This document shows, piece after piece, positions 3,001 to 33,500 of a stretch of DNA of 64,000 nucleotides. The notes beneath the pieces are model-generated. The model saw nothing but the letters and a program-made list of their open reading frames with translations. It was not told where the DNA came from and did not search any database. The stretch comes from Sipunculus nudus (Eukaryota > Annelida > Sipuncula > Golfingiida > Sipunculidae): contig CM049306.1 of assembly GCA_026874595.1 (NCBI GenBank), positions 8,612,519 to 8,676,518 on the forward strand. The letters run 5' to 3'. Both the position numbers and the translations under genes were made by a program. How positions within the stretch are numbered: the stretch's first letter is position 1; each line of letters starts with the position of its first letter.

Positions 3001-3258
3001 CATTTGCCAGCAAATCAGCAATTGAAGAATGTGGTATATATATTTGTGTATACCATGCGTGGGGCTGACTTGTCAAGTCAAATGCTACTTTTTCTAAATG
3101 ATGAACTTTTTTGTCGATAACACTTTTTTGTCACAAGGTGGATATAACCATGATCTAGTAGTTCAAACAATTTGAAAAATGGACGTATTAAGATTTTAGA
3201 AAATACTTACACCTTGACATATCTAGTACGTCACCTTCAAGTTCCCGTAGCTCACCTC
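1..3258. other. Gene-free flank, with a possible degenerate repeat element
   Basis: No exon-like pattern was found. About 538-1338 may be one dispersed element: it opens with GCCTCCACCAGGAGG and closes with TGGCGGAGGC, which are inverted relative to each other, and contains GT-rich and C/CA-rich tracts (1292-1326). The remaining ORFs here are short and do not resemble known proteins. Confidence 0.4.
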
Positions 3259-6329: not shown

Positions 6330-8079
6330 TTACAAGGCAAATTCTAATAGTGTGCTGTAACTGGCTTTGACTGAGCCATAATTGGCACATAATGCAGCCT
6401 TGCTCTCTTTGCCCCAGTGCTTTTCCATAGGAACTTCACCTTCCCACGAGCCTGATGGTTTCTGGTCCAGCTGCGTCCAGTCATCACCGACTACAATCGC
6501 CACAGCCTTGGCATTTGGGATATCAGCTTTAAAGTAGACATTCTGGAAAGATGAGGCACTTCCTTTAGATGGCCGGTTGGCAGTGATTTGACCATCAAGA
6601 GGTTCGTAGAGGTAGCAGCCTTCCTTCCATTGACCATATTGCTTGGGGAAGGGCACAAGTGTGGCATATGTGTTGGTACAGTTGATCAGGTAGTTGTACA
6701 CTCCTGGCAGACTCTCGCTGGTATCTGAATATGGCAGGGCATACAGCTGGAACTTGTACATGCCTACCTTTGGAAGCTTCAGCATAAAGGTGACATTATT
6801 CCCCTGTGCCTGTTGGAGGATGTAGTCAGAGTAGTCGTCACTTCTACCGCCTGAGATGTAGATGAGCTGGGAGGTCATCCTCAGTGGTTCGCTCTGCGTG
6901 AACGTGCACTGAACATCCCCACTCTCAGTGGCAACATAGGGATCTGGGTGGGACGTGGTACCAAGGCCCAGGTTCTTGAAGCTTGGTTGAGGGCCCAGAT
7001 AACCTGGTGGCAGCACTGGTAGTGGTTCCACCACACCTTTGACTTCTGTGCAGATGATGAGGTACTGGAAGGCGTGGTAGAGGGAGTTACCATCAACCTC
7101 TGGGTCATTGGCGTAAATCTCCAGACCAAACTCTCCGCTGGTTGGAGCTGTAATTGTGAACACTGCCAGATCTGCCACCACACGGTGCATGATGAAGCCC
7201 TGTAGTGCTTTCTCGTCTTTTGTGTTGCTCTTTAACTTGGCTGTAAAACGAAGATCTTTTGGTAGCCTGAAACGGACTTCAGCCTGACCGTTGACCGTGC
7301 TGAATATGGCTCCTTTCTGTACGGCAACCAGGTTGTATTTGGAAGCGCTGTCCCCAGGACCCCAGCTGGTGTGGACACAAGGTGGGAAGGGGTTAGGAGC
7401 TGGGGGTGATGACTGGCAGACCAGCTCGTATTCACATACACCACCATACACCCCCTCCTTGGTGGTCTGCTCGAGATCCTTGGCATAGATAATCAGCCTG
7501 TATGAGCCCTTGACCGGAGGCCTGATTGTGAAGAATGACACATTATCAACCATCTCTTGCATACCAAACCTGTTCAGCTTGGTACCTTCATATTCCTCCT
7601 TGCCATCATCAAAGGTCAAGGTGAAGGTGAAGGCCAGACTCTTGGCCTTGACTGGAGGACAACCTATCCTGATTGTGGTCTCCGTGTTGGTGCGGATCAC
7701 AGCCTCTTTGTGACTGAGGATCTGGAGGCCATATTTAAAGAATGCTGATTTCACCGGTACCAAGTTCTCAAAGTCTGCCAGGCTGATGCTACGTTCAAGC
7801 AGCTGCCAACTGATGTCATCAGGGAAGTGTGTGAAGATCAGCTGGTGAGGGTCGGGCATGAAGTAGTATTCATCCAGCTCATACCGGACATTTTCTGGAG
7901 TCACCTTCTTGCCTACAAGACGTCTTGCTGCCCAGTGGCAGTCAACCAATCTCCAGGCACCGTTAACGAGCACAGCATTCCAGGAGTGCTGGCCCTGCTC
8001 CCCAGTAAACTTCATGCCCGGCTTGTACTCCGCACCCTTTGCATAACCACTGATGGTCTTACAGTGGAGACCAGCATAG
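6330..8079 (-). CDS. Exon 17: KY module 2, core end and C-terminal repeats (terminal exon)
   Basis: Acceptor CCCTTCAG, phase 2; ends at TAA 6332-6330 after 583 codons including the stop. It starts [20 protein letters not shown], then [20 protein letters not shown] with the conserved His and Asp. Four C-terminal units follow. The first three carry a P-x-x-G-x-(Y/F)-x-(L/F)-x-(I/L)YA motif ([27 protein letters not shown]); the second contains [14 protein letters not shown] as in E4. The last unit ends [10 protein letters not shown]. Module 1 has only the first two of these units, so module 2 looks like the complete ancestral form. High similarity to hillarin/KY proteins is expected; I have not run a search. 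Confidence 0.93.
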
Positions 8080-11000
8080 CTGAAGGGAAACACAATATTT
8101 TATTGCAGAAATAATGTTATAATTAACACATTAACACTAGATAAGAATTAGACCTCTAACAAAAGATTTTCATTTACTGATTACACACTAGCACAATTCC
8201 CATTCTGTACTCTTTAATGAGTATTTTAAAAATTACATTAGTTTAATATGCATCTATTTCCTGTCATTGTTAAAAGTTAATAAAGTGACTGATATTTACA
8301 ATTAAAAGGGATTAGAGGTCACTTTTTCTACACCCAAAAGCACATCATGGTTGAAATAAGCATCTCTAGAAAGTTTCAAAGGACAAACATAAAATGATGA
8401 CTTGCTGAAAATGAGAGTCATCACGTGCCTTTCTAACCTACCTGCATAGTGTCTCATACACAACAGCGTAAGTTGTCTGTCCTTTCTTCAAACTCATCAA
8501 AATCTCCTCAGGCGAGTCTTTTGGTAGGTTCTCAAAGTTGAGCTTTGTCAAATCCTTGGAGCACAGCCACAGGAAGATAGCTCTGAATAATTTATAATAA
8601 TGATGAGGAATAATATGCTAGTATTTATACAATAATATAACATATTTATCTCTCAACACTAGATGGCTAAGAAACTGTATTTAGTGTGATAAAAAACAAA
8701 ACTATATGGAAGTCTTACGAAAGTATCACAAACAAACTTCACTAAAGCCTAAATAAATGAATTATATGTTTCTCAAGCACATTTTTTCAAAAATGATGCA
8801 GGCAAGTGGCTTTTTAAATATTTTTTTATTATGAAAATAGCATAAAATGTCATTATTTCTCATGCACTGACATAGAATTGACAACAAATGCTTAAAATAT
8901 GAGATAATAAATGACGTATAGGACAAACAAGTCAAACATTTTCCAGGATATTCTAATATATAAGGATAATTCAAATACATAATATTTTTATTTCATGTAA
9001 TATTAACATGCACACCAGATTATATGGGACTACAGGTGTCAAAATCGCGCTGTTAACTATGCAACATGCAGAACCCCTGACGGTCATCACATGGGGGATT
9101 CGCCGTCAAAAATGCATGATGACCATACATTGTCAAAAACAAGATCCAGGATTGTTTAATAATGAAATTATGTAATCTTTATTGATATTTCTTATTTTAA
9201 TTTTGATTCCTAAAGAATGGAAGAAACATAATGGAAGTTCATTTTAAAAATGATCTCTGCCAACTGGCCACAATGGCAGCAATGCTCACGCACGGTTACA
9301 AAGCATGAAAATAGTGAAAACAAAAATAATTTCTCTTTGTGGGACTAAATTTTACATTTTTATTCTATCACACATCAATTAGTCTGATTCCAAGTGTTTA
9401 TTTAAAGATTTATATAGGTTTTTGAGGAAACCAAGCATATTAACATACCATTAGCTATGAACACTGGCACTGCTACACTAAAGAAAATAGTTCTTAAAGA
9501 CAGATATATGAGATAATAAACAATATTCAGACCTATTTGGTCAAAAGTTTTAGAGGAATTATCAGTGTATCAAAGTACATTCGTTGATAAAAAATGAAGG
9601 TATCAGAAGGAGGGGTAACTGGCCAATGACTCTACAATTAGTCTTAGATTTTTTTAGTAGCACTCAAGTGCTTGGGCAATAAAAATGTTTGATGTGGGTG
9701 TGTGTTTAAATGATGCCTGAGAAACATAATTTATTTTGGCTTAAACAAAATCTGCTCTGAATTAAGCAAAACACTTTTATACTGATATATAGCTTTTTAA
9801 TTTGATTTTTCTATCAAATAAAACTAGTGACATTGTAAATAAGGTAATACAAATGGAAGAGTAATTAATTTACCAGTATATTTCCATTTTTCCTGGTATC
9901 TTCATATTGCCACTAGCTACCAATATGGGTATGCCACTTGAGTGGTGCTTACCTTGCCTTTTCCAGCTCATTAGAGATATCTCTGGCATAGATCAAATGC
10001 CACACCAAGTCACGGAAGCTCTTATGTTCTTCTTTAGACACCTAAAATGTAATATCAGTAATATAATACAAGAGAGGATTCATGTAAATCACAAAATCAC
10101 CAATGTTAATTTTTTTGATTGACTCACCCTGTAGGAATATTAGTAGTGTATCTTAAACGAAATGAGTTACATAACCTGCATGTATATAGATACAGGATAT
10201 TCACTTTATACGGGATATAGCCAATGCAGTCTCTCGTATAAATGGAGGAGAAAAACCACTGGCTGGCACAGCCAGAAGCCCATTAATGCAGGCAAAAGTG
10301 ATTCAGCCAGATGGTCATTAGCACTGCTATATCTGACCATCCCCACTATATCAGCTAATATATGCTATTGACTCTGTTTACTTAATATGATCATTGAACA
10401 AATATGAGGCTATAATTAATTGTTAATAAGGAATATTAAATGAAACTTGCAAAACCTGACATTTATCAGTATATGAGAGACCATGTGTAGCTTTGCCCTG
10501 AATTATCAAGCAAGTCCGTTGATACAAGATAAAGTTCTAATGCAAATATGTCATATCTAAGCTTTTTTCACTTTCATGCTACTTTTTGATTACAACTCAA
10601 CAATAGACTATGAAGACAAGATCATATTAAATTTCAGGATAATTTGTAAAGAAAAATACTTTGCTCAGTGCACATACAGCTGTTTTTAATAAATGAGTGG
10701 ACAGGCTGTCTGCCAGGGGCACTAGTTGTTTGCCTGCAATTTTTTCAGGCAGGCAGGCATATTTCGCCTCCACACAGGAGAGTATCAGCATTAGTGATAA
10801 CCTGTATTCAACAGTTCTTGCAGGATAATAAAAAAGTTCATTCACAATTACTGAATATTTAGAAATGGACAGACAGACTGAAGACCACCAATGATGGAAT
10901 GACTGGAGTTACAACATATCTGTATATACATACAGTGCATACAGGAAAAAAAAAGTTCATTCATAATTACTGAATATTTAACAAGTGATCCATGGGTCAT

Positions 11001-14000
11001 GACCCTCAGCTGACAAGGAAGAAATTCTAGAAGGAATTTTATCATATGATTATGAATGCCAAATTTTGTAGGTGGTATCCCCATTCAACTGTAGCAATTA
11101 AAGGGAAATAATAAGGAGCAATATTATGCATATTCTTTCACACTATCAGTTCAGTTTTGCTTTAGATTAAAGTTTCCCTGGAAAAACCATCCCAGTCCAC
11201 AGTCTTAGTACCTCACAAACGGCTGTTTAACACCATGTTATGGCTCTGTGTGTTGGTAAACACAGTCCACGTGTGTCAGTTTCCCATAACAAGGCCACGT
11301 GATCAGAAGTATGAATATGAGCTGCAACTGGTGCTGTTTCAGACAGCAGGAACATGTATTACATTTTTGGGCCAAGTCATTCAGGGCATCTCCGGATTGA
11401 CATGTGCCAGGTTTATGTTGACACCTGTGATTGCACAAGGTCCACTGTCTCAACACTAGTTTACAGGAGTAAGCATTTTCAAGGCAATATTTTGGCAGGT
11501 ACAAATTTATTTTAAAGAAGCTATTTTTGTGTTAATTCAACAGCTACATAGATTATTATGCTCCTTTAAATTTACTTCAAAATCAACAAGAAGAAAATGT
11601 TTCATGGTAATATGTCCAGCCATTTCCATGAAATCTAGCCTTTTTGTATGCAGTCGGCTGAGCTAAAAATGACCATGCACAATTGTGAAGGATATCCCTA
11701 AATGTCAAGACAGAAGATTCTAGGTCCAACAGTGAAGGTTTGTACCCTGACTGACTGTCTGGGTGCTTTAAATGTTTTTGGCCAATAATATACGTCACCA
11801 TGACCTAATTTCAGGTTTCCATGGAGATTGCCCTAGACTTCCCTGTATACTGCACTGGAACATTCAAAGGCTAGCAGACACAATTTGTGCCCATCTGATT
11901 TTCAGGGTGCTAAAACCATGCTCTTGGCTCAGAGTACATAGAATTGTCACCATGACCTAAATTCAGGTTTCCATAATGGACCATGGACAATGGACCATAA
12001 CTACAGCTCAGATGACTTATAGTCAGCTGAGCTAATAACGGGTGTTTAGCCAAAGGCAGAATGTGTTTGGAGTACCACCAGGATTATCATTGCTTGATGC
12101 TGCTTGAAACAATCATACTACAACCATGTTACTGTAGCAACACTGATAGATCTAAAGAGTGGGTGATCTAAGGGATATGACATATGATACCTGTATTTAA
12201 AAGTTGACAATACTGAAAATGTCCTCTCACCTCAACTGCGTGAGCATCAACATCCTTGAACACCTGCACGTTCTTGAAGGGTTTGGGTGGTACAGGGGGT
12301 GGAGCAGGTTTAGGGGCTTGTTGTGGCTCAATTTTTCCTGGTTCGAAGGTCTCTGGGGCAGCAATTGTGATGGAACTAGTGTACGTCTTGTGTGAGTGTG
12401 GCTGGTATTCCATCTCTGGTTCTGTCGGGCGCTGAGGCTGGAACGGCTGTTCTGACTGCTCCTGGGAGCCAAATGGGTAAGCAGGTCTTGCATGCTGAAC
12501 TACCATGGTGGCTGGAGTTAAAGATAATATATATATATATGTGTGTGTGTGTGTGTATATATATATTAGACTGTATAAATAATAACCACCGTATATCACT
12601 GCACATAATGAGAGATTTAGTCTTTTATTAGTCATGCTAGGGGAAGAAAAAGTTTCCAGCTGATGTACCTTAAAGGGTCATATATCACCTCTGACCTCTT
12701 CAGTAACATTATAGCTGCTTCAAGCTAAGACAGTGTTATTTTGTACCATGGTTACAAAATTGATGGATCATTATAGTTTATAATGAACTTTGCTGATTAA
12801 GTGTTCAAAGGAAAATTTGTTTTCTACAAAAATTAAACAAAAATATATCTCTCTTACAATTATGATATTATGATGATGGCTCTAATAGCTTGAATATACT
12901 TTAGCATATGTACAAATAGCTTGATTATACATACTAACAAATCCACAAATCTGCTAAAGTCAAAATTTATTAATGAGAGGTCCGTAGGCTACTACATACT
13001 GTGGTTGGCTTCATATTTGCGAGGTAAAATTTTTTGAATTTCTAGTAAAACAAGAATTCAATTTTTTTGTGGGATTTCCACTTGTGCAGTATTTCACAAG
13101 GGTTCAAATTCTGCAATATCAACATACTGTGAATTTCACCAAGTCAATCTAATATTTAATGAATTATTTGGTACGCTTGTAAAATTCTTAACAACTTTAG
13201 AAGGACCCCAGGAACATTAAATGGGTGGAAATTCTTGTTTTATAAGCACATAATGCAAAAGGTCTAATATAATTCTTAATATCAATCTGAGATTTACGGA
13301 TAACATTAACATTTGTGACATTAATTTTTGTGACAATGCTACCAAACAAGCTTTGATAATGTATATGTATATGAGATACCAATGAGGGTATATTAAAATT
13401 TATGTATAAAATTGTTCAAGAAGGTTTTAATTTGCAATAATTTCCTTTCACAAGTATCACAAATTTTAAAACTCGGGAAAAAGCAAACAATGTATTGACT
13501 ATGTAGTAAGCTTTGTGTGATCACACTATGTAGTAAGCTTTGTATGATCACACTATGTAGTAAGATCAGACTATGTAGTAAGCTTTGTGTGATCAGACTA
13601 TGTAGTAAGCTTTGTGATCAGACTATGAAGTAAGCTTTGTGTGATCAGACTATGTAGTAAGCTTTGTGTGATCAGTCTATGTACTAAGCTTTGTGTGATC
13701 TGACTATGTAGTTAGCTTTATGTGATAAGACTACGTAGTGAGCTTTCTGTGTTTTTAAATTTCTGACTTTGGATATATGACCATATATCTGTATATTCTG
13801 TGACTTACTCTGTTGTGTGACTGGCTGCTCAGGGTGACCTAGGTTAAGACCTTGACCATATATTTGTATATTCTGTGACTTACTTTGTTGCGTGACTGGC
13901 TGCTCAGGGTGACCCAAGTTAGGACCTTGACCATATATTTGTATATTCTGTGACTTACTGTGTTGTGTGAATGGCTGCTCAGGTTGACCTAGGTTAGGAC

Positions 14001-17000
14001 TTGACCATATATCTGTATCTTCTGTGACTTACTGTGTTGTGTGACTGGCTGCTCAGGGTGACCTAGGTTAGGACCTTGACCATATATCTGTATATTCTGT
14101 GACTTACTTTGTTGTGTGACTGGCTGCTCAGGGCGACCTAGGTTAGGAACTTGACCATATATCTGTATATTCTGTGACTTACTCTGTTGTGCGACAGGCT
14201 GCTCAGGGTGACCTAGGTTAGGACCTTGACCATATATTTGTATATTCTGTGACTTAATTTGTTGTGTGACTGGCTGCTCAGGGTGACCTAGGTTAGGACC
14301 TTGACCATATATCTGTATATTCTGTGACTTACTCTGTTGTGTGACTGGCTGCTCAGGGTGACCTAGGTAAGGACCTTGACCATATATCTGTATATTCTGT
14401 GACTTACTCTGTTGTGTGACTGACTGTTCAGGGTGACCTAGGTTAGGACCTTGACCATATATCTGTATATTCTGTGACTTACTCTGTTGTGTGACTGGCT
14501 GCTCAGGATGACCTAGGTTAGGACCTTGACCATATATTTGTACATTCTGTGACTTACATTGTAGTGTGACTGGCTGCTCAGGGTGACCTAGGTAAGGATC
14601 TTGACCATATATTTGTATATTCTGTGACTTACACTCTTGTGTGACTGGCTGCTCAGGGTGACCTAGGTTAGGACCTTGACCATATATCTGTATATTCTGT
14701 GACTTACATTGTTGTGTGACTGGCTGCTCAGGGTGACCTAGGTTGGGAACTTGACCATATATCTGTATATACTGTGACCTACTTTGTTGTGTGACTGGCT
14801 GCTCAGGGTGACCTAGGTTAGGACCTTGACCATATATTTGTATATTCTGTTACTTACTTTGTGTGTGACTGGCTGCTCAGGGTGACCTAGGTTAGGACCT
14901 TGACCATATATTTGTATATTCTGTGACTTACTTTGTTGTGTGACTGGCTGCTCAGGGTGACCTAGGTTAGGACCTTGACCATATATCTGTATATACTGGG
15001 ACTTACTTTGTTGTGTGACTGGCTGCTCAGGGCGACCTACGTTAGGACCTTGACCATATATTTGTATATACTGTGACTTACTTTGTTGTGTGACTGGCTG
15101 CTCAGGGTGACCTAGGTTAGGACCTTGACCATATATCTGTATATACTGTGACTTACTTTGTTGTGTGACTGGCTGCTCAGGGTGACCTAGGTTAGGACCT
15201 TGACCATATATCTGTATATACTGTGACTTACTTTGTTGTGTGACTGGCTGCTCAGGGTGACCTACGTTAGGACCTTGACCATATATCTGTATATACTGGG
15301 ACTTACTTTGTTGTGTGACTGGCTGCTCAGGGTGACCTAGGTTAGGACCTTGACCATATATTTGTATATACTGTGACTTACTTTGTTGTGTGACTGGCTG
15401 CTCAGGGTGACCTAAGTTAGGACCTTGACCATATATCTGTATATACTGTGACTTACTTTGTTGTGTGACTGGCTGCTCAGGGCGACCTAGGTTAGGACCT
15501 TGACCATATATCTGTATATACTGTGACTTACTTTGTTGTGTGACTGGCTGCTCAGGGTGACCTAAGTTAGGACCTTGACCATATATCTGTATATACTGTG
15601 ACTTACTTTGTTGTGTGACTGGCTGCTCAGGGCGACCTAGGTTAGGACCTTGACCATATATCTGTATATACTGTGACTTACTTTGTTGTGTGACTGGCTG
15701 CTCAGGGTGACCTAAGTTAGGACCTTGACCATATATCTGTATATACTGTGACTTACTTTGTTGTGTGACTGGCTGCTCCGGGCGACCTACGTTAGGACCT
15801 TGACCATATATCTGTATATTCTGTGACTTACATTGTTGTGTGATAGGCTGCTCAGCATGACCTAAGTTAGGACCTTGACCATATATCTGTATATACTGTG
15901 ACTTACTTTGTTGTGTGACTGGCTGCTCAGGGTGACCTAGGTTAGGACCTTGACCATATGGAGCTCCTCCTCTGGAGGCCTGAACTTGTACCGGGATAAT
16001 CCTAGATCCTTGATCCTGGGGTTGTTGGCCGTACTGTTGTCCATATGGTTGCTGGCCATAAGGTTGCTGTCCAGAAGGTTGTTGACCATATGGCTGTTTC
16101 CCATATGGCTGTTGTCCATATGGCTGTTGTCCGTAAGGCTGTTGTCCATATGGCTGTTGTCCAGAAGGCTGTTTTTGTTGGCCATATGGATAATCTGCAA
16201 GGTATTTTTTGTTATTTATTTACCAGTATATGGAATTCTTTTCTTGCTTGTATAATTCATTTGGTAAGTATAAATTAAATTTAAAATACATTCCTTATTA
16301 AAAGATTCCATGCAAACTTTTTCTGACCATGCAAAATAAACATATTTTGCACACAATTTTAGGAACATTCAATATCCAAAACTTTGGAACATGTCAAATA
16401 AATGTTACACTTCACAACACTCTCTAATGGTATGAGCAGCTATTTGGTGTAAAATATATCCTTTGTAAATGGTCACCATGCTATCAAACATAACTAATTT
16501 AATTTGTATAATGCATGAGCTCATATCTGAGATTTTATTATATCAAAGAATTTAAATCCAATGAGTATTATTGTACCTGTTTCACTTCATTAATGACTGA
16601 ATAGACAAATTTTAAAATATATTTAAGGTAAAAAAGCCAAAGATTTAGGAGAGGTAACTCAAATAAATTATGCAAAGCCCATTAATGACCATACTGCCAT
16701 GGTAACAGAGCTCTGGAATGGTGAACATTGACTAAATAAAAGTATACAAGCCAACTAAACAGAATTAATCATAAAAGTAACCCAAGAAACAAAGGCAAAT
16801 AAACAGCACTATGTACATAAGTAAATTAAAATAACTTTCACAGAGCAGCAAATCAACCATGAGAAAAGCAGTTAGCCATGCCTGATGAAGATCTGTATGG
16901 GTGAGCCTGAAAGGTGATGTCACCCCGTGCCCCCACTAGAGGGCGCTGATTGTCTTGTCCTCTGCCTACAGGTGGGTAACCATGGCCACCACGACCTGTT

Positions 17001-20000
17001 GTTATATATATATACATACATAATCACAACACTGTGGAAAGAAAATTGAACTTAAAGCACTACAATATATGAAAATGTGGTGAAAACAATTTAAAAGTAC
17101 TACAGTATATGAAACTACAAGCATTCACACACCATATCACCGTCATCTGTTCATACATTAAAGGACAGCTTAATATCAACAAATTTATTGCAATGTCCCC
17201 ATTCAATTAAACACTCTGATGTAAAATGAGAATGTGACAATTTATAACATGCTATGTGCATCGTGTGCTCAAGTCATGCATGTCACTCAACTTAAACTCC
17301 ATGCTCTTATTGTGCTGAAGATCTCATTGTTATTCTTATTGTTCTAAAATACAGCACACAGAAGATTTTTCATCAAATGGAATTAAAGGAGAACATCTGT
17401 GAATTAATTTCATTGAAATCACACAATTTTTGTGTTTGTAGAAATTAAAGGAAAACTTTAAACCTTTGTGTCTGCATCTAAAACACTCTCAGTACAGCTT
17501 ATACATATCTACATTTATTTTAAGTATACTTAACTGGCTTTGGAAACCCTTCATATCCGATATGAACCCATCTGCATACATTTATGATCTTTCTCAAGAA
17601 CATCTTTTGATAATTATTTTTGCAAATGATCAGGCAATCAAGAGAAGCAGATGTTGAATCAAATAAAACTTCATTAATTTGGGTACAGAATATGCCTAGT
17701 TATACAAAGCCCTTTTAAATGAGACCATTCAACCATGGCTGGGATAAAGATCATTGATATCTTCCAAGCACCAGATTTTGTGACAGAATATAATTTTCTA
17801 TGAAGCATACATCTAAGTTCTAAGAGGAAACAATGACAGAATGCAAGAACTACAAATGATACCAGCTAAAGCTCTACTCAATACAAACAGTTAGACTGGT
17901 AAAGAGGTAAACATCATGCAACATGCCTTCAGATCGCTCGATCTGGCCGGGTTTTCCGTCACCCTGACCGTGCCTCTCAACATGCTCGGTGTTAGCATCA
18001 GGTCCCCTGTTGGTGTCTGAATCCTCAGAATCTGTGCGAGCATATACACGTGACATGTCAACCTGTGCCAGTATATACATGTTGTGTCAAGACCTGACAT
18101 GTCAATCTATGTGAGCATACACACGACAGGTGATTTGGTGCATGTAGTCATGGCATCAGTTTACGTATGCATACACACATGACATGTCAATTGATGCAGG
18201 CAGCACCCATCACAATGTCAGTCTATATATGTGTATACATATGACATGGCAAGTTAACCTAAGTGCATTGTATACATAAGGTGACAGGGATTGTCAGTGT
18301 ACACTCATATACAAACTACATGTGTATGTGCAAGCATCCATGAATGGCATGCCATAATGTAAAAGCACATATAATCATGATATGTTAACCTGTGCAGGTG
18401 CATATAGAAAACTTTCTGTGAGTGCATGGTGTGATTAAGTGTTTGTGTAATGAAGTTAAAAGTGTCATAAATAATTCACATACAATAATATCAATACTAC
18501 ATGAACAACAAAACCACGCACATGCAACACTCAAGTAACAAGTCCTGCTGTTTAGGTAAAAAAAAATAAACGGTATGGTTCTCTGGCACTGCCGGCGTCA
18601 ATTTTAATCCCCATTTTTATTTTGATTTTCATCTTTCAAGAAGATAAAATAATACAATTTAGATACAATTTCCTTTGTTATTTAGTGGTTTTACCTGTTA
18701 AGCATAAAAATATTTTTTTTATTTTCCCTGATCATAGATTTTTATCGAAACATACCAAAAAATTCAAAAATAAAATACCGCCCGCCCGCAGTGATTTTTT
18801 TAAAAAGTGCCTGAGAACCAAACCTTTTAATTTTTTTGGCCTTAGACATCATTCCCTGATGGTTCAAACTTAAATAAACCAGCTGTGACTGTGACAGATC
18901 ATTGTTCCCTTACACAGAACCTTGTTTAGTACTACTGGGACCTCTTTAACCTGTGTGACCAAGAATTTCCATAATCATCTAAGGTTACTTGAGTACTTTC
19001 TTCAAATTACTGAAACTTTGTTTCTCTTCCTAAAATATTATCAGTTTGATTATTAAATTATGAAACCATTTTTAGATTAAGCAATAAAATGTTGTCTTTG
19101 AATTATGATACTCAATGTTTTAATTGTTCATAATGAAGATTTAATATAACAAGACCCCAATATTTCAAAGTTTAACATATACTATCATATTTCATATATG
19201 ATCTAAATATTACTGCCAACTACAAATGACAACTGAAGAATGAAGTGCATGATATCTCTTGAAGTTACAGTTCAAACATTTTTACTTTGCCAAAGTTTAC
19301 TTCCTTTTTATCAATGATGTATCTATCGTTTACATATGGGGTCCAGAAAACCTCTCTATATATCTTATTACATATTAAATTATACCTTCCATATTTAGAG
19401 CCCAAGAGATTAAGAACCATTAATACTAAATTGGGTAACATGTCATTTTTTTACATTCTATGTTGTACTACCATAAAGACCAACTGTTCTTGTGGCAGTG
19501 AATTATAATGCTGAAGGCAGAGAACTACTAAGCACTCCTAATTTTTCCTTTGATCCTACACTGTTTAGCAAAAGCTGCAGCATTTACTATGGAGGCTTTC
19601 AACATACATCAGAACAAAACCAGAGTGTTGTAGAAAACATTCCCAACAAACATTCATCAGCCAAACCCTTATATCTATTCTAATTTTGGAAACTAGTCCT
19701 AAAAAGTTTTGCTGCTTAACTTTCTTGGTGAATTACGGGGGCATCTATTATTCAGGAATGTTATAACAAACACAGTTCCATTTAGATAATTAACAGAATG
19801 ATGGATTGATGTACCAAACTGGTCAGCATGAAGCTATACTTGACATGATGCTGGGGCCATAATCTAACAACCACTAATGTATGATTTAATGATGGTGTTC
19901 TGACATGCCCCTTGACACCACAGAATTTGTAACCTTTCTTTCTATCAACAATCCTTCAGAGTAACAAACAAAGCAGTGTATGGAGCCTTGATTTATAATT

Positions 20001-20152
20001 TGGGTGTGTACTGTAAGTCTAAATTAAGCATGATAAAATAAACCCAAATTACTTCCATTCTTCCTTCTAACTAATTCTTAGATTTATTTTATAAAAGGTA
20101 CTTCATTTTAAGGTCTCACAACAGTTAGTTATATGTATTATAAATACTGTAT

Positions 20153-20189
<37 letters not shown>

Positions 20190-23100
20190 GTATACCAACC
20201 ATTACAGCACATATTAATCTCTAAATGATTTTTATCAACTAAATGTTGAGTAACAATTACTGTCATACACTGAACTATAATTACAGTTACCATGGAAACG
20301 CTTAATGAAATTTGAATAAAAAATACAATTATGAATGAAAATGATATAAAAATTAAAATGAACAGAAAGCATAAGAAACAGGAAAAAGAAAGAGTGACAT
20401 GCCTGAAGCTTCCCCTTTGGGTGCCTTTGATCCCATCAGCGCGGCCATGCGTGCAGCGTGCTTCTTGTCTGCTACAGCTATCACAACACATCCACATGCA
20501 CATGTAACAAAGACCTCGCTGACTCACACTAAAACAGCTCAGGTGGCACCAGTAAAGCCAAGCCTCAAAATCAATATGCAAATTATTTCAAGGACAACCG
20601 ATTAAGCCTGACCCCTGGGAATTAGTTTTTACCCTCATTCACATTGTCCCTATCTGCTGAGCTCAGTTCCTATTGTTTTCACAAAACACTTAGAAATGTC
20701 CCCTTTGTGTATTTTTTTTCTTTCAGTGACATTCTCAAAAATATGATATCTTATCCATTGTTTTTGTTACAATTTTATTTTTTATTCACTGTAAGAAATA
20801 CAATTGATTTTTGTTTTGATTTCTGTAATAATTTTCTGATCAATATAGACTGATCTGAACAGAGAATACACCTGGATCCTGTTTTATATGGCTTGACATG
20901 ATATTAAAATAAGGGAATAAGAATAATTATGATTACGTATTAATTACTGATGCCACCTGAGTTAAGCAAATCATGCAAGAATCACTGACTGACAAAATCA
21001 ATACATATGTGTCTGTTTCTTAACCAGATGATATGCTTGGTAAAATGGACATTAACAAACAAGACCTAGTTCTACAGAAGAACCTGACTTAATTTACAAG
21101 AAGTTCAGTGTCAATATCATTGGTAGACGATAAAATAAACATATGTTTTAGATTATACAGATTTTAATTGCTGTTCAGGATAATATATACTGATATGGCT
21201 AATTATTACTCAACTGAAATCCTGGTAAAATCAACTTAGCTCTTAAAAACAATTTTCCATTTTACATTGTAAATCACTGAGAACTGATTAATAAATGATC
21301 AGTTAATTAAGGCAGCATCACTAGCATAACAATTTTCACAAAATACATCATTTTCCATTCATGAGTTCTTGGCAACAGATGAGGTAAAAATAAATTAAGT
21401 GCCAAATCACTAAAACCAATAAACATAACAATGACATAAATGAAATTTATTTTGTATTCTGTCAATAATTCTCCAGGGACAACATACTCTTAAATATTTG
21501 AAGGGTGATAAATCAATCCGAGGATTCAAACCATATTTTTCATTATTAGACAATTAATTGGTTTTAAAAATGACATACATTAATATAAGTGTTAACAATA
21601 TTTTCCCCTGTATAATCGTTCTTTAGTGACAATCAACTGAGAGTGGAATCTGTAAATTTTTAGGGGAGTTGTCTGTAATATTCTGTTCTTCTTATGTGTT
21701 TTAATTAATTAATTAGCAAAATGTCCTTACCACTCCTGATCCTATAAATCTCAAATTAATTCTCAGCTAATTATAACTGAGCTATGATGAAATCATTAAC
21801 TTGATTGACAGATGATTTTATAAATACTATTCAGCAGTTCATCTGATGGCTGGGCAGGGATGCTATTATTACATGAATACAATTTATGCACATGAGCATG
21901 ACACCATAGAAACCAATAGAACAAAGACTGAGAGGAAGAGGATATAAACACATGCCTGGCGCTCTCTTCTGTGTGCCTGGTGAACCTTTGTCTCCTGAAT
22001 ACACAATCTCCACTTTACCCTGACCAGTGGTGCCATCTGATGACAAGCAAATGAACAAAAGCACATGCATCAAAATAAAAAGGTGGAGAATTATTAAATG
22101 TTAATAAAAACAGAAGATCTTCAGTTATATATCATAAGTAAAAGCAGACATTACTTAATATTAGTACAGAGAAGAAAACTAGTAAAAATTTTCATGTATA
22201 AAGAAATTTAGATGACAAACTTAAAAGTTTAATCCTGAGGATACATATGCAAATAACTGTTTTTGGAAAAGTTACTTCAACAGACTAACTTGTGAATGCT
22301 GCCTTACACTTTGTTAATGTATTTCTCAGACAAAATATGTGTAAATAGTATGTTTCACTGGGTAAAGTATTACTGTGTAGGTAACTGGTCATCCAACATA
22401 TAAAAACGCAAGTGTTATAGAAGCCAATACAATAATTTGTATCACAGCAAGCTGATCAGCAAGCTACTCCTCGAGAGGCAAATAGCCCCTGACCTCTGTC
22501 TTGTAAAATCTGGAGTAAATAACAGATATTCAACATATTTTCACTGTTAAAAATATTATGGCACAGCAAAAGTAAACCATATTGTATGACAAGGGGAATG
22601 TGTGTATGTATGGGGAAGAGGGTGTTTGGCTGTGTGCTTGTGAGTGGAAGAGGGCATATATTTTTTTAAGTGGCATTAAAAATTAAAATAATAATTTGAT
22701 TAAGAAACAGAAATCAATTATGCATGCCTTTACGACCAAGCCTAGGAGACCGTCCTCCGGGCACATACACTACTTCCACAGGGGGTTGTTTAGGCTCCTC
22801 TGGTTCTGCAGCATGCAAATAAAGCAGAGTTAGGTCACACAGCATCAACTTGTCACCCCCACACAGCAATGGACAAGTCCAGCTGAATTTCAACACACAG
22901 ACTCTGCTGTCAAATCTCCCTGTAACACAACCTTCTGGTCCAAACCATCACATGCAAGAGATCATGTGTTCACTTAAAATATTAAATACTTCATATCCAG
23001 CTATTTAGATACTGACTATATTAACTCTGCATGTACAACTTGATGTGCTTAAGGTCTCAGAACTGATCATGGGCATGTAAAAACATTGTTTAAGATTTTC

Positions 23101-24539
23101 CTTACTGGTCTGGGACCACTTGATGTGTATATATTCTAATAGCTGAGAATATGCTCAACATATTGGTATATGGCACATATAAATGTCTCTTACACTAGTG
23201 GATATTATCTAGATTTCAAAATATTTTAATGTATTTCATGTATTTGACTAAAAATCATTTTTTATGCATACATGTAACAGCTCCAGACTATCTCATATCT
23301 GAGAATTATTGATTAATAATTAAAATGTATAAAACTACTGGTACCGGTATTCAATGTTTTAGTATGTTCTTGTAGAAAGTTTTTGGAAAAATGCAAAGTT
23401 TCACACATAAAATATTATAGAGAATTATTTACATGTCAAGTGGTTAGCTTATATTAAGGAAAAATGAACCACTGTGTAGACAGACCCCTTGGACAGTTCT
23501 GGGACCTCAATAAATCACACCAGCAAATGCATATTGTCACCTTTGCATTTGATGCAGACATCCCATTACCATGAGTATCATATATTATGGTGAGTTATAT
23601 CACAACCACAAGAAGTAGAGGATGTCTATTTTTAGTTTTGGGATATGAACAAATAATAAAGCATTTATTCTTGATAGTGTTACAAATATGTGATTAAGCT
23701 TTGTAATCCTGAAAGATAAACTCTGTCAGCAAAACCCCATGCCTGTAAATCTTTCAACCCATGTGCACATATATGCCTATATGCATAATAAATAACCTCA
23801 AAACCTGTGAGTGTGAATGTATATATGAGTAAACTAGCTTGTGACTGTAGTTTTTGGTAAAATCAGCCTGTGAATCTGATAGGCCATCCAGAAGGTTGCA
23901 GGACTGATTTCATTTTATGAGGATTCCCTCAAGAGCTCAAATCACATGTCCTCTGAGTGACCATCACCATTATTTTATAGTATCTATACTAGAGCCCTGC
24001 AGGCTGCAAGTAAGAGCCTGCATCCACTCCACAGGAAAAGCCTTTAGCCCGAAACCGCCCTTTGATGCAGATGGCACTGCCCTGCAGTTGAGAAAACACG
24101 CCCCACACTTAAAAGAAAATCGACCTGCAAATTTAGGTTTCACATCTGACCTGCCATGCATATTTATCAAAATACAGCCAGGATTCAACCCGTAAATATA
24201 AACCTGCAGGACAGGCTTTGGCTGGCACAGGGTTCTATTGTATATGTCGAGGGAAGAATGAGAATCTGGGAAAGTCCGGAATCGAAAAATAAGAATCCAG
24301 AGATGTTATGAAGGGATTCCCATTCTTCTGGGAAGAATGAGAATTCTCATTCTTCCTGAGACAAATGAGAATTCCAGTCTCTCCTGGGAAAATCAAACTT
24401 TGATTGTCTTTCTTTCACATTAATTCTGAACTGTTCAAGTACTAAAAAAAGAAATAAATAGTACACTCACACAAAATAGAAATATGTGAATAAAATATGA
24501 ACCTAAGAAAAAGTGTTATATAATATATATATATATGTG

Positions 24540-24599
<60 letters not shown>

Positions 24600-27500
24600 G
24601 TGTTAGTCAATCTAACGTAAGATGTTTATCTTCACTGAATTGTAGATTAAAAATATTCATATCTAGAAATCTTTATAATTGAATCATGTGTTTTCAACTA
24701 ACATGTATTTGATGGGTTTAGTACTATCATGTGTGAACAAAACTGATTTTAACAGAAATGTGTTTTCTACTTTTTTTCATGACAAAAAATGTTACTGTTC
24801 TTTTAGCAATGGTCAGTTAATAACATTAAAGTTTGGTTATAATACTGTTGTAAAATATGCAAACTTAACCCACCTTAACTATTAAAAGGATATCATTTAA
24901 CAAATTGGAGCTGGCTGGGAAAAAAAAAGAATTCTGGTTTTTACCAAGAAAAATCAGAATTCTCATTCTTCCCGGAAAAAATCAGAATCAAATCATAGTA
25001 TGAAATGATTCTCATTTTTCCCAGGAAAATTGGGAATTCCCATTATTCCCTGGGAAAATCAGAATTCTCATTTTTCCTGGGAAAAATCAGAATTCTCATT
25101 TTTCCCGGGAGGATTCCCGATCTTCCCAGATTCTCATTCTTCCCTCGACATATACATCCTGATGAATATATGGTCATTACACAGAACTTTACAAATTCAC
25201 ATGACTGATTTTTTATGCATATACATTCATATTTGTGCACATTGGTTTTAAGTTTAATCACACAATATTCAATCATTAGCTGAACACAAAGTAACACTTC
25301 AGATGAGACATGCATTGCATTGTTAAATTGTCACATTTTTTCTTAAATCACTTCAAAATATGTAGATTTCCTTTTTCATTACACCAATAAAGACAGGGGG
25401 GGGGGGGGGGGGCTGAATTTCATATTCAAACCTGCAAAGTTTGAAGCTGAGAAAATATATTATATTAGAACATTGGTCACAAAAACCTGAAAAATATAAA
25501 ATTCTCACAAAATTTGTTTCCAGCAATAATAAAATATACTGCAAAAATTATATTGGTTTTGGTCACCCAAGCAGGTATAGGCAGGTATAAGCCTGTATGT
25601 TGCTATGGTAACAATCAATACTATGGTCAGTACCATATTGGTTATATTATAAAGACAAACAAAGTAAACACAAATCTAAAGAAATCTACGGAAAAGCAAA
25701 ACAAAACGGTTCACAACAAAATTCATAACTGTACCCTGAGGCAGCTTTACACCAGTAGTGCAACATTTCTCCACCAGATGGAGACATCTATCCTACACCT
25801 GCTTTTGTTTTGACAAGTGTCTGAAAACTTTTTTCACTAAGAAGGGCCCTCAATAGGAAGAAAATTTGGAGATTCTGGGACGCTCAGAATAAATATTTGG
25901 AGTCACATGGGATTTTGGAGTGTTCCATGGGGAGGGGATCTATGCCCAAGTTTGAAGGGTTATGAAAATCAGGTTTTTTTTTTAATTTATATCATTTTTA
26001 ACATATCATTTTAATGACTGGGTACTGTGATATTATATATTTCATTATAATGAAGTTTAAGGGTCCTAGGTGATGCACAGTATATACACAATTCCCTGGT
26101 TTGTGTGAGATAGTCACAAATGGTCAGTGACTACTACATGAGCTAGCTTTTACACTCTCTGCTTTACATCAAGAAATTTGCGTGGCCCATCAGATTCTTG
26201 GCCCTCATAAATGAGTGTCTGAATGATGCTAACCCCAACATCCCTGACAGCCCAGAATTAGGGGTGTCACCATGCTCCATACAGAGACAGAATCTGAGCA
26301 AAACTAAGATTATTAAAATTAAGACACAAAGATCTAATGAATGATTACATGACATGTATATGTTAAATATTTGAGAGATTTTCATTCTTTTCATTATTGT
26401 TCTTGTTATTACCATCATTATTAAGATTACCATAATACATAAAATTTCAAGTGAGGTCACTAAACTGTTAGTCATTCTATATAGACAGACATTCATTTTA
26501 TATGATAGATATAGCCTATAGGCAACAGTGATAATTTATCTATTTTCAAATACTTCTCTTGACTGGTTCCCCTTCAGTTAGCAGGCCTTTAGAACTGGTA
26601 CCCAAAGGAAACATCAGCTCATACCTGACAACTCTCTGGGAGGTGTCTTGCAATGGTATGAATTTATTTTGTACTGTTAATTTTTTTTTAAATCTATACA
26701 AAATATTTTTAAATAATATGTCTATATATGTGGCACAGAGCACAGAGTGAATAACTCCCTTTTACATTGTATGTAACATATGTAGTCATATTCTAAATTA
26801 TTTTCAGTGGATTAAAACGAAGCAGTGCAGAATTCATGCTGGTCATGACTGTAAAACACAGCCGACTAAAACAACAACAGAACAACAGTGCATGTATAAT
26901 GAATGAACAATTTAAAGCTGTAAACAGTGGAGTAAATTCTTAGCAATTTACATAAAGCAGGACTGGCATGAGGCTTTGTAAACATGTTTAAACGCAAAGG
27001 TTCAAAATGGTTAGGGTCAGGGGTCATACACGAATTCAAAACATCTCAGCCGCATGACAGATATGAGAAATTCCTAGCCTTGGTGTGTAGGCTGGCTGGG
27101 GGCTTTGGACACTGTTATGGTGAGTGGTGGACCTGTTCCTCCTTTAGGCACCTTTATTTGTATCCCTACAAATTACCATATGCAAATCATATGCAAATTT
27201 CACTGCAAAAGTCAAATAGACAAAACAGCCTATATACAAATGTTTTCTATGAAATTGTATGCACAAGCTTGTAAATACACCATACACCACCCATGTCAAT
27301 AATACTGCAATAAACAGATATAAGCAAATCAGTTGTGAAAACCTATGCTTAAGTCTGCAATATTCACAACACAAGCTTAATACCCTTCATCACTTCAGAT
27401 GATCACAAATCACAAACCTCAAGTTCAAACTATAGACCCTTCTGTCAAACATTTCAGTTAATATTCATGAAACTTGAAAGGAACAACTAAAACAAAGCCA

Positions 27501-30500
27501 ATATCATTTTATTATTCATTATAACTATAGCCCTTCCTGAAATTTATTTGATCAATCATTGTGTATTAAATATTTTAAACAAACTAGCAATGCAGTTCAA
27601 CTTTTATCTTAAATGATGTTTAGGGTACCACAATTGTTTCATGACCTTGACCTAAGATTTCATGACCTTGACCTTGGAACTGATACAAACAATCAAATAT
27701 TACAGGGTGAAGGGTGTCAAAACAGGGTAAAATGAGTGTAAAGTGCAAGCATCAAATAAAAGACGACAATGGAAAATAAAACATGCCTGGGGGGTGTAGA
27801 CTGGCCCCGTGTTGCTGACCAATGAGCTCTGCTGGTGGTGATGGGAATTCACTTCCACCTGATAGATACATGCATGCATTTACATAACAGCAAAATGAAA
27901 AACAATTTCATGCATGTAAGAAATGAATGTAAACAAAACTGACACATGCTGTGCAGGAGATAATTCTAACACTTAAAATAGGTTCTGGTGAGTGATAACT
28001 AAGTTAAAATTTTATGATAATCAACAGGTTGGTTAACTTAGTAAATCATGTCAACAAAGTTAGTCAGACTTGCATATTACTCTATATATTACCTGTAAAC
28101 TAATCTGTTTGTATGCACCATGGATTCTGGTCAAACATTATTCAAGTCTATTTCCATTTTACATGGAAAAAAGGATGTTACCTTAGAATGCATTATTATA
28201 TTAATAATTAATCATATGCATGTTCAACAATTCAACAATCAATGAACTATTCTCAAAGAGTTTCTGCAAACTGTCAGCATTTATGTCCGGGGAGGACAAT
28301 GTATGAAACAAAATGAAGAGTGTCACATAAACATAATTAAACAATTAAAGGTGTACAGCATGAGACCCAGGAGAGAATGCAGAATGTGTTTACATGCATC
28401 AGAAGGGTGCATACACATACACACATGTACATGCAGATCTTTCATCCAGAAAACTATGCACTGGCCACTGTGCAAGGAAAATGTAAAGTTCACTTTTAAC
28501 AGAAATTAAAAACATATTAAAAGAAAAGTGAAAATGACAAAGCAGATGATGCATGGGTGTAACCCTTGACTGTTATCACAAATAGTCACGTATAGAAAGT
28601 AGTACTTTTTCACTAGTCTTTTTGCATAATGCGGTACCAGTGATATGAAAAAAAATTATGCCTTATCTTTCATTCCTTTCAGCAAGCACAAGTGCAAAGC
28701 TGTTAGTCATGCATTTCTGGAGTTGGTGGCAAGAAGGTGAGACCAATAACCAACATCCAACAGAAATTAAGGATTTTCTTTTGTGAATGTTCTGATATTA
28801 TTTATGACTTGGGTATTTGAGAATCTTATCTTTGATGAACTCTAATATTTAACCTTGACAAAAATATGTCTGGTGCATTAATAAAATTTACACAATTTTA
28901 CATTGTACTTCTAATGACTTAATGTTCCATATGAACAAAATAATAACTGCTTGGCTTTTTGTTTTATTCTTTTACTTTGATCTGTGTGCATATGAAAACA
29001 GGAACATCATAGTTGGTACATGAATCATATAATCCTGTTGTCAATGACGGGATTTTACTCAGTTATACTATGTACACTTACCTGTTAAAGGATGGTAAGA
29101 TTAAAATACGGCAGAAATATCACACATATGAAGACCAGTAATATTATAATTTATATGAACTGGAAACTGACCAAGTAAGCTAAAGAAGAATTTATAAAAC
29201 TAAAGTTAGAGACTAAAGTTAGAGGACTTCTGGAAACATCTGAGATGAAAGAGCTCTGGTTATTCTACAATTATAGACCAACTACAGTAGAAATGAGGCT
29301 GCACCAGGACTTCTACAGTTCTGTATACACTTACTGGGTGCCTGTCCCTGCTGGTAAGCCTGTTGGTCCATCAGCTCAGGGGGTGGGGGAGGCAACTCAT
29401 CGCCCCCGTACCCTGGTTGACCTGGGCGCCCCCCTCCTGGTTTTGGTGCTACTGCCGGTGGCTGACGCTGTCCAGGGATACCATAAGGACCTCCCTCCAC
29501 ACGAGTCGTCATCTAAAAAATAATCTAAAAAATTATTATTGTTTCCAAACATAACTAATGGTAGGGGGAAAAAATTCTTTGGGAAGTCTTCCATATCTAA
29601 GATTTGCTGCAAAAGATAAAATCCAAGCAAAGCATAGGTCATTATAAACAACATTGACAACAATGACCCTCAGCAAATCTTAAGCAAACTTAACTATAAC
29701 CTTGACCTTTACTTTATGGTAAGCAGTCATGCTGGGGACTTAAGCAATGAAAATAATTTCATTTGATCTCTTTTTTTGGAATTAGCATACATAAGGGTGA
29801 AACAAAATAAAGTGTAACAAAACATGATGTGACAAAACACGAAATATTACAGCTTGATCATTAAACTTTGAGTAAAATGACAATGAGCACTGAGTAGCTA
29901 CTCACATGAGGATCCTGAGCACCAGGCTGAGCAGGGCGATTGAGAGTATCCCCCTACAACACTCGTAATGTTAGTGATCACATCATGCACTTCACAATCA
30001 CTAGTCCATTACTTCTCTGACTCATTAACTATCAGTATATTAGTTAACTTAAGCCAGAAGACTGTTGCCTTCCTGCATGCATGTAACAGCGCACAAAAGC
30101 TTGGGATATCAGCCAATATATACAGTTAAATTGTAATTCATAGAATCACACCTAGGCTATACAAAATATTCATAAATTCATAGGGTCTACTGTCTTTTGG
30201 ATATGGTGTGTACTGTATTAATTCTGACTACCTGATTAGTATAGAAATGAAAATACAAACTCTGAAAAATAACATACTGTTTCAAGTCTACTCAAAGAGA
30301 AATAACTACTTTTTGCTTTATACAAGACATTAACACAGGTAATCTGCATCTTACAATAAAAGTTTCCCAGATTAATTAATAGCCTAAGCCCTTTTCTTGT
30401 TCTATCAGCTTTTTGGACTGGATGCAAATTTTTCAGGAGCACTCTACACATGCTGCCCCCTGGTGGACACTAGAGACACCACTGAGGGTGAATACTCTCT

Positions 30501-33500
30501 GCTTGAATCAATGTTCTGCACAGCAACAGCTGAGGGCTTGCCATGCACTGAGTGTGATCTGTGTACTCAATCACATCCTAAAATAACTCTTAGCTTAACT
30601 CATGTATGGTGCTCATCACGTTATAACGCAGACAAACAGAGAGTTGTTTCTATGCTATGACAGACAAATCAAATAGGATGCATCTACTGACCACTAAAGA
30701 CCACTTACAACACCAGATTTGCAAGACAAGAATACATGAAGTATTGAAACATTCAAATATTAATGTTACTACACACAGAAATCAACTTTCATTGGGTTAA
30801 TTGTAGTACAAATTTAACTGAATATACCATTGTGAACTGAACACAATCGTACTAACAAAGGTTAACTCACTATTTTCCAAGAATCTGTTTCATTTCTCTT
30901 ATATTTTACATTTATTTTTTCTTTTTGTTTGCAAAAGTTAAACCAATAAGAATTCGAGCTGGGAACTGGCATCATTTGCAGTGATTGCTTCTTACCAGAT
31001 CTTTCAATGTTCAATTCCCCAAAGCATTTTTATTATACTTAAAACAAAACAAAAAATGAAAATTGCATGTTTTCCCTATGAATGACACAGAAGCAAAATC
31101 TATATAGTAATATATGACAAATTACCACAAAATACTTAAAATTTGTATATCTAATAATTTCAAAAAGTTAATAGAAATACTGGTAAATTTTTAAATATTT
31201 ATTCATACCCAGTAATAGGATTTGCAGATTGTGACATGTTCACATGTTATATTCAGTTACCTGAAAAAAATATATTGCAAATCTGGATTCCAACAGAAAA
31301 TTCTTAACTCACTGAAACATGCAATTAATACACAATACCAATCATGAATATTCCAGCAGGTAGTCCTGGTGCACTTTGTAATATTGTTCATGTGGGAAAC
31401 ATATTCATCTGAAAACTACTTCAAGATCAGCAGAAAAAAAAATATTCTTATTTAACAGTCAGATGAAATCAAATAATTAAAAATGGAAAATACAGTTTAT
31501 CTATTTGCTTTTTGGGTTGACTGAAAATGGTAAAGGTGATCTTTGACCAAAAAAGTTATCCATTTTGATAAAATAAATAAATCATTATATCTAAGTACCA
31601 GCATATGATAAATGTATGATTTTTATGAAAATAAGGTAAATTCTAATTGTTTAAAATGAAGTGTTCTAATACAAAACTGTTCCTACATGGTGCTAGTTTT
31701 TCAATAGCCACTTTTTAAGAGACTTGAAAACAGCTGTTGTTTTATTCTGCCATAGAAGTTAAGTTCATGTGACTGATAAAAGAGGGCAGCACCTGAAGGT
31801 TAATGCCAGAGAACTCCGAGCTGGATTTTATAAATAGCTGTAAAGTTTATGCTGTATCAGGTGCCAGCCACATGTTGTAGCTACGGTTCTCACTCTAATC
31901 ACTCCAGCTTGTGCTGGCTCAGATACTGCAAAAAGGGCTGGGACTTGATGAAATGTTAAAGAGCAGAGCTTTGACCTGATTCCCCCCCCCCCCCTCCCCC
32001 AATCCAGCCAGTGGTGAAGAGTTTTTATGAGGATAAATGTACAGGTCCTAGTTTAATATTAAAGGTAGATTTACATACAGTTTCTGATGTGGAATTATAA
32101 TCTGTGACAGGTCTGAAGACTACTCAATCTCTATTTTGAGATTTAAGGGTAAGGTGCGGGGGTCTGGGTACAAATGCTACCATGCCACAACAGAACCCAA
32201 AAACAGCATACCACCATGCTGGCTGCATGAATCATTGGAGAAGAAGGTAGAAATGGTGGGTGTACCTGTGTGGTTTGATGGCGAATAACTCTGGTGCTAC
32301 TGCCATCATCAGACGATTGTGTTTCTTCACGGAACGTGCGCTGGGTGAAGGTAGATCCATCCCAGTCCTGTGAGGAGGTTTTGTACACCTGAGTGCCCCC
32401 TGGGTACTGAGGCTGTCCTCCGCCTGGTGCCTGCATGGTCTGTGACTGGCCTGGCCCTGCGTACTGTACTGGCTGAGAGCTGAGGTACTGCTGAGCTGGA
32501 GCCTGGCCGGAAGTCTTGTGCACCTGGTCATATACCTGTGGGTACATGTTACGGAGGTCCCGATCTGAGTAAACAGTCAGGTATTGGCAGATGTGCGTGA
32601 ATGTGTCACCCTCACGGGCTGGCTCATTAGCATAAACTTCCAAGCCATATTCCCCCCTGGCTGGCAGGTTTGTAGTGATGAAGATTTGATCGTTTTGTTC
32701 TCTGATGGAGACGCATGCCTCCAGTTGGTCTTCATACATCCCATCCTTGGTCAGCCGGGCAAAAAGCCGCACGTCCCTCGTCTTCTGAAAGGAAATTTCT
32801 GCCTTTCCATTAGGAGCCTGCAGCAGCGCCTCCCTGTGGCTTGGTACAAGACCATACTGTCGTACCGGAGCCCCAGGACCCCAGTTTGAGTCAGAGCATT
32901 GTGGGTATGGTCTAATATCACCTGCTGCCGTGTCACATACGATCTTGTACTCACATGCCGCCTTGAACACATTCTCAACTTTGATTTTATCACCTACGAA
33001 TTGTGCAAAAATTGTGAGGAAATAAATCCCCTCACGAGGGGCCCTGAAATAAAAACAGACCCGGTTCTCTGTGGTCTCCTGAATGATGTAGCGTTTTAGC
33101 TGGACTCCCTGGACTGACTCCAGCATTTTATCACCGTATGTCAACTTGAAGGTGAAGGCTGTTGGGTTAATGTATCCCAGGGCAAGTCCCAGCATGCCGT
33201 TCTTTGTGTAAATGATTCCATTTGGCACATTTAGAAAATGCATCCCTACAGTAAAGAAAAATGATTTCACAAGCGGGTATTCCTCAAACTCTGCCCTTGA
33301 CCTTGAGGGGTGGACAAGTTGCCAGGCAGGATCTTCTGGACAATGGCTGAAGATGAGTTGTCCGGGCTCAGGAAGAAAGTAGAAATCATCGTATTCATAC
33401 ACCAGATTGTCTGGGGTGTTACGCTCAGATTGCAGATACCGAGTTGCCCAGTGACTGTCCACTAACTGCCATATTCCATCGATTAGCACGGCGTTCCAGC

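Follow-up and report, generated by a model that had tools for sequence, protein, structure and literature searches.

The stretch of DNA analyzed here, referred to as the window, comprises 64,000 nucleotides (nt) from the marine worm Sipunculus nudus. Its minus strand carries two modules of the KY type which are joined, in one open frame, by a long linker of low complexity. Within this linker six consecutive exons (E7 to E12) appear to end in a GC 5′ splice site that reads AG|GCATG. The five bases after the cut correspond to the core binding word of RbFox, and these donors may therefore serve both as weak splice sites and as Rbfox sites. The exons of the gene (A1–A5, E6–E14 and B2–B4) were placed by hand with consistent phases. 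The six exons with GC donors are the following.

E7: 27787..27858, minus strand, 72 nt, donor CAG|GCATGT
E8: 22728..22805, minus strand, 78 nt, donor AAG|GCATGC
E9: 21956..22036, minus strand, 81 nt, donor CAG|GCATGT
E10: 20403..20471, minus strand, 69 nt, donor CAG|GCATGT
E11: 17927..18031, minus strand, 105 nt, donor AAG|GCATGT, internal in-phase GT at nt 69 (AGG|GTGACG)
E12: 16882..16995, minus strand, 114 nt, donor CAG|GCATGG, internal in-phase GT at nt 72 (GGG|GTGACA)

All six exons have phase 1-1 and lengths that are multiples of three. In the exon model each of the six following introns starts with GC and ends with AG, and the cut is preceded by (C/A)AG in every case, as in the GC-AG consensus. 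MAG|GCATG (M, C or A) is the sole sequence common to the six donors; the bases before and after it vary. The joined frame stays open whether it contains all six exons (1662 amino acids) or none of them (1489 amino acids), a difference of 173 residues. This bears out the original prediction, which was made from the letters alone and had described six consecutive exons with these donors, lengths and phases in one open frame from E6 to E13. Its proposal that successive GC donors behind phase-symmetric exons are likely tied to alternative splicing finds support at the level of the sequence, and E7 to E12 are probably optional exons. The term “cassette” used for them agrees with their phase symmetry, which is its sole basis here. 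A GT four bases beyond the cut was correctly said to give the wrong phase where it is present, but GT dinucleotides in phase occur elsewhere inside five of the six exons (two each in E7, E8 and E11, one each in E9 and E12, none in E10).

In model organisms less than 1% of introns are reported to be GC-AG (PMC7072748), and for human genes that code for proteins the figure is 0.8% (PMC7242645). The remaining ten donors of the gene are all GT. GC donors at 6/6 sites in the run and 0/10 elsewhere in the gene have a probability of 1 in 8008 by counting. For myosin genes of the same genome 20 of 22 junctions were resolved, all with GT donors, and two were not. Four of these 20 belong to similar exons, presumably alternatives, that match one stretch of one gene and share one acceptor. 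The procedure used for the myosin junctions favors strong pairing with U1 small nuclear RNA (U1), so that a weak GC site could escape it, and a rival AG|GC join exists for one of the 20. Between 12.6 and 43 kilobases (kb) of the window the sense strand contains 67 AGGC sites. Nine of these continue as AGGCATG, including all six exon ends (hypergeometric probability 8.4e-7). AGGCATG as such occurs 13 times in the window, with 8.96 ± 3.32 expected, and 16 of 100 shuffles reach 13. The signal is the placement of AGGCATG and not its frequency in the window.

The coding potential of the segments was scored with codon log-odds trained on the KY exons. The six segments reached 0.47 to 0.61 bits per codon, and each of them exceeded all 337 open phase-1-1 candidates from introns (best 0.41). 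A second scan used windows of 22 codons and was blind to splice sites. Outside E6 and E13 it gave sense peaks at E11 (0.71), E12 (0.67), E7 (0.64), E10 (0.60) and E8 (0.54), followed by 24015-24080 (0.52, GC-rich), E9 (0.44) and 27089-27154 (0.42). The peak at 24015-24080 was set aside, since both strands score (0.52 and 0.45) and it looks transposon-like by eye. The peak near 27 kb may represent a further exon at 27079-27165, where 87 nt of phase 1-1 with the donor AAG|GCTAGG encode a 29-residue peptide and contain an internal in-phase CAG|GTCCAC. Genome searches covered an assembly of 1.43 Gb in 153 contigs, in which the window lies on contig C1. There, the E8-E9 and E11-E12 stretches matched only themselves (E7 and E10 were not searched), and an origin of these two stretches as haplotype copy or repeat was rejected on account of this uniqueness.

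GC-AG introns typically combine (C/A)AG before the cut with GCAAGT after it, where strong pairing at +3 to +6 offsets the mismatch. All six GC donors carry T at +4 and do not reach GCAAGT-type strength, which is a preference of the class and not a requirement. The calculated duplex energies with U1 range from -3.0 to -6.1 kcal/mol for the six GC donors, versus -5.6 to -13.7 kcal/mol in the ten GT donors; a change to GCAAG would improve the pairing of every one of the six. T at +4 is present in 4/20 myosin donors and in 0/10 GT donors of this gene. This base weakens U1 pairing and is rare in GT donors; therefore, splice strength does not explain it. One alternative is that the GC donors are real and the exons optional simply through weak donors, with no role for Rbfox at the donor. 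The low pairing energies agree with this, as does the let-2 gene of Caenorhabditis elegans, whose regulated splicing requires a weak GC donor (Farrer 2002 via PMC7242645). However, this explanation accounts neither for the T at +4 that completes GCATG in all six donors nor for the UGCAUG words at the acceptors described below, and we regard it as rather unlikely.

Alternatively, some or all segments could be coding but use internal GT donors, or be unspliced relics, so that the terminal AG|GCATG would be incidental. E7, E8, E9, E11 and E12 offer a GT in phase for this purpose, and three such sites surpass the GC donor of the same exon in U1 pairing: the best one in E8 (-3.4 versus -3.0 kcal/mol), AGG|GTGACG in E11 (-6.0 versus -3.0 kcal/mol) and GGG|GTGACA in E12 (-6.3 versus -4.5 kcal/mol). 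These three sites also count against the use of the GC donors itself. E10, in contrast, lacks an internal GT in phase, and the candidates in E11 and E12 carry C at +5. Moreover, the high GC content persists up to the AG|GC boundary in E7 to E11, with 0.53-0.64 in the last 36 exon bases and 0.14-0.36 in the following intron bases; for E12 the values are 0.47 on the exon side and 0.42 on the intron side. The position of all six exon ends on AGGCATG among 67 AGGC sites would be an improbable coincidence as well. Internal donors or relics thus appear unlikely to us.

In the original prediction the GCATG shared by the six donors was seen as an unusual form of the GC consensus. It is the RbFox core pentamer, which had been overlooked, and together with the UGCAUG copies concentrated at the acceptors of these exons this would account for the donors more specifically. 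RbFox is reported to bind GCAUG with low nanomolar affinity, and single changes weaken the binding strongly (PMC9911399). Copies of the full hexamer UGCAUG were found close to five of the six exons.

UGCAUG, three copies upstream of E7 starting at -16, -20 and -56: 27869..27914, minus strand
UGCAUG at -12 of E8: 22812..22817, minus strand
UGCAUG at -33 of E9: 22064..22069, minus strand
UGCAUG at -29 of E10: 20495..20500, minus strand
UGCAUG at +7 of the intron after E11: 17915..17920, minus strand

Within 50 nt upstream of the acceptor UGCAUG is present in 4/6 of these exons (five motifs) versus 1/11 other exons. The latter one is A5, which is phase-symmetric too. Random windows drawn from the introns of the gene contained a mean of 0.21 motifs per six windows, and none of 20000 trials matched the observed number. 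UGCAUG is the single hexamer that occurs in at least four of the six within 50 nt. When the donors themselves are counted, 6/6 of the exons versus 1/11 others have GCATG no more than 40 nt upstream or among the first 20 bases of the intron.

A common origin of the six exons as copies of one duplicated exon would explain the shared donor by inheritance. The peptides of E8 and E9 resemble each other (P 0.016, uncorrected) as the single pair of 15 that falls below 0.05, but the other 14 pairs show nothing and the donors share nothing past MAG|GCATG. In addition, if the duplication were old, selection would still be required to preserve GCATG amid the divergence of the rest. Such an origin is very improbable. 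Even less is to be expected from a variant U1 that pairs with GCAUG and recognizes the six donors, although for two other animals a U1 variant has been suggested to act on GA donors (PMC7072748). A genome search for U1 5′ ends with G opposite the C at +2 and any base opposite +4 yielded 0 matches, compared to 88 canonical 5′ ends, and would miss more divergent forms. From 18832 first-look candidates 42 U1 genes were scored, all at 162 bits. The 88 canonical 5′ ends reside mostly in arrays with a period of ~2.8-2.9 kb, on contigs C6 and C12, with single sites elsewhere.

The remaining features of the gene are listed below.

KY module A: 32266..43225, minus strand, Ig-like_KY match, continuous frame, GT donors throughout
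A1: 43088-43225, minus strand, coding exon of KY module A, GT donor
A2: 36833-36918, minus strand, coding exon of KY module A, GT donor
A3: 35764-35904, minus strand, coding exon of KY module A, GT donor
A4: 32266-33595, minus strand, coding exon of KY module A, GT donor
A5: 29906..29953, minus strand, 48 nt, phase 0-0, donor CAT|GTGAGT, UGCAUG upstream
E6: 29335..29512, minus strand, upstream neighbor of the GC-donor run, donor CCA|GTAAGT, phase 1
E13: 15907..16194 up to the first possible donor (AAA|GTAAGT, phase 1), minus strand, acceptor of phase 1
KY module B: 6330..12511, minus strand, Ig-like_KY match, GT donors throughout
E14: 12231-12511, minus strand, coding exon of KY module B, GT donor
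B2: 9953-10041, minus strand, coding exon of KY module B, GT donor
B3: 8442-8582, minus strand, coding exon of KY module B, GT donor
B4: 6330-8079, minus strand, coding exon of KY module B

The Ig-like_KY domain was detected with 145.1 bits in the A4 frame and with 267.5 bits in the B4 frame (cut-off 27). Both frames are ~40% identical when aligned. As to the transglutaminase-like core with its catalytic triad that marks KY-type proteins, the segments GLHC and HSWNAVL are visible in both modules. Their exon structures match, with 141 nt for A3 as well as B3. Judged by these similarities the two modules are a tandem duplication, either fused or neighboring. The joined frame leads from module A through the long low-complexity linker with E7 to E12 to module B. 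Because this open frame runs through both modules, we infer that they belong to one gene rather than to two neighbors; E14, however, holds a possible start codon of its own. Hillarin is a fly relative of KY-type proteins. The protein encoded here shares with KY-type proteins the Ig-like_KY domain, present in both modules, but differs by the two modules and the long low-complexity linker with its GC-donor exons in one open frame. A5, whose donor is an ordinary one, may be optional as well. Contig C1 contains another Ig-like_KY match at 72565754-72566122; it has two internal stops and is possibly a decayed copy.

On the intron side of E13 an array of ~29 copies of a 75-base-pair (bp) unit extends over 13778-15959. 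It contains GTAAGT 27 times. Up to the fourteenth, these lie in phase 1, and the frame is open from E13; therefore, E13 has many equally good possible donors. An interpretation of the 75-bp unit as exon plus mini-intron was rejected, as the phases do not fit (by eye). Further repeats of the window include related 28-bp repeats around GGGAAGAATGAGAAT at 24235-25150 and 46860-47700, two stretches that likely are copies of a single repeat family. Tandem arrays were found at 3258-4873 (period 41 bp), 50332-51162 (39 bp) and 58324-59435 (280 bp); in the first of them the plus strand retains long open frames.

A degenerate 29-base pattern for the RNA recognition motif (RRM) of Rbfox had a single match in the genome, 1.6 kb from an RRM exon of 93 nt that encodes 31 residues and whose nearest solved relatives are RBFOX1 chains. 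By this evidence the species has an Rbfox gene. The 93-nt exon, the one such exon looked at, is preceded by TGCATG from -32 and GCATG at -8 and ends in the donor GAG|GTGCATGG; additional GCATG copies are located 88 to 215 nt upstream. The mammalian Rbfox2 counterpart of this exon is described as repressed by Rbfox3, and the Rbfox3 counterpart encodes 31 residues, with an equivalent optional exon in the fly (PMC3126832). By analogy to mammals the RRM exon may be optional and repressed here, too. Its motifs at both splice sites resemble the two-ended layout of E7 to E10. Unlike E7 to E12, it keeps a GT donor and has the motif one base later. Fly Rbfox1 was reported to control the splicing of several muscle structural genes (PMC8742874).

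From the sequence architecture, the motif placement and the presence of an Rbfox gene, all of which are observed, we infer how the sites are used, that Rbfox binds them, in which direction it acts and what this does to the linker. E7 to E12 would be six optional exons in a flexible linker which joins two KY modules of one protein, and MAG|GCAUG would act at once as a weak GC donor and as the core Rbfox pentamer. To this proposal we assign a probability of roughly 55%. The donor would be GC rather than GU because the Rbfox core starts at the first intron base, and setting the Rbfox site exactly on the cut would have produced the GC donors in a row as a side effect. The UGCAUG words near the acceptors of E7 to E10 and just past the donor of E11 would provide additional Rbfox sites. 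A joint occupation of +1 to +5 by U1 and Rbfox is unlikely. Consequently, both would compete at these donors, and Rbfox would thereby set the length of the linker. The upstream UGCAUG copies cover the region where factors of the 3′ splice site bind. Rbfox at both ends could exclude these factors as well as U1, which would lead to skipping of the exon. Cells rich in Rbfox would then produce a short linker, while Rbfox-poor cells would include the exons, with up to 173 extra residues. Conversely, Rbfox might help U1 onto a donor that is too weak alone. We lean slightly toward repression because of the positions of both motifs and the comparison with the Rbfox RRM exon.

Several observations weigh against a double role of MAG|GCAUG. 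The base before the GCAUG of the donors is G and not the U of the full hexamer, and E12 has no UGCAUG within 100 nt. With dinucleotide-shuffled flanks, P values for at least four positive segments were 0.004 (50 nt) and 0.007 (100 nt). TGTTTT likewise occurs in 4/6 at 100 nt. TGCATG is over-represented throughout the window (89 versus 61 ± 8 expected), and GCATG is also found up to 100 nt downstream of A1 to A4. The motif tests were post hoc, run once the motif had been sighted. As to the coding evidence, E10 and E11 also score in antisense (0.52 and 0.59 in the 22-codon scan), and a wrong frame of E10 is open and scores 0.48. The GC content of the exons is 0.52-0.59 versus 0.29-0.40 in the flanks; thus, part of the coding signal is composition. 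Finally, activation by Rbfox has been described for two vertebrate exons with weak donors. RBFOX2 raises the inclusion of a Snap23 microexon with a GC donor from downstream sites (PMC12064062), and for MYH9 exon A2 an action of RbFox at the weak donor, with increased inclusion as its effect, has been reported (PMC13158602).

The Snap23 microexon is regulated by RBFOX2, QKI and MBNL, and a C to T change in its donor results in full inclusion (PMC12064062). It resembles E7 to E12 in its weak GC donor, its nature as a small in-frame optional exon and its Rbfox-type regulation. The difference is that Snap23 has a single exon with RBFOX2 and QKI sites in the downstream intron that promote inclusion, whereas here GCAUG is the donor and six exons are concerned. 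MYH9 exon A2 is likewise a weak optional exon whose 5′ splice site was proposed as the place of RbFox action; in this case, however, the donor is GT, the proposed motif is GUGACU, no UGCAUG was found and the effect is activation (PMC13158602). In C. elegans let-2 the weak GC donor of intron 10 is essential to regulated alternative splicing, but this is a single site, and no link to Rbfox was seen for it (Farrer 2002 via PMC7242645). In the literature on GC-AG introns and Rbfox we found no description of GCAUG as the GC donor itself, which does not establish its absence from print.

Beyond this gene, composite 5′ splice sites might form a class of their own, with an Rbfox word as the first five bases of the intron and with GC arising via selection for that word. 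The exon run would then be a length ladder in the linker that is tuned by Rbfox, and the Rbfox RRM exon a second clamp with two ends. We put this generalization forward tentatively and consider it somewhat doubtful. GC donors are usually regarded as tolerated weak sites. If the proposal is true, the non-canonical C would be needed to complete the binding word of a regulator. It would also supply a sequence rule for regulated GC introns, namely AG|GCAUG combined with a UGCAUG copy at the acceptor, as well as a simple switch in which either U1 or Rbfox binds. It is disputed whether Rbfox blocks splicing or aids it when placed at a splice site, and these exons would make the question testable.

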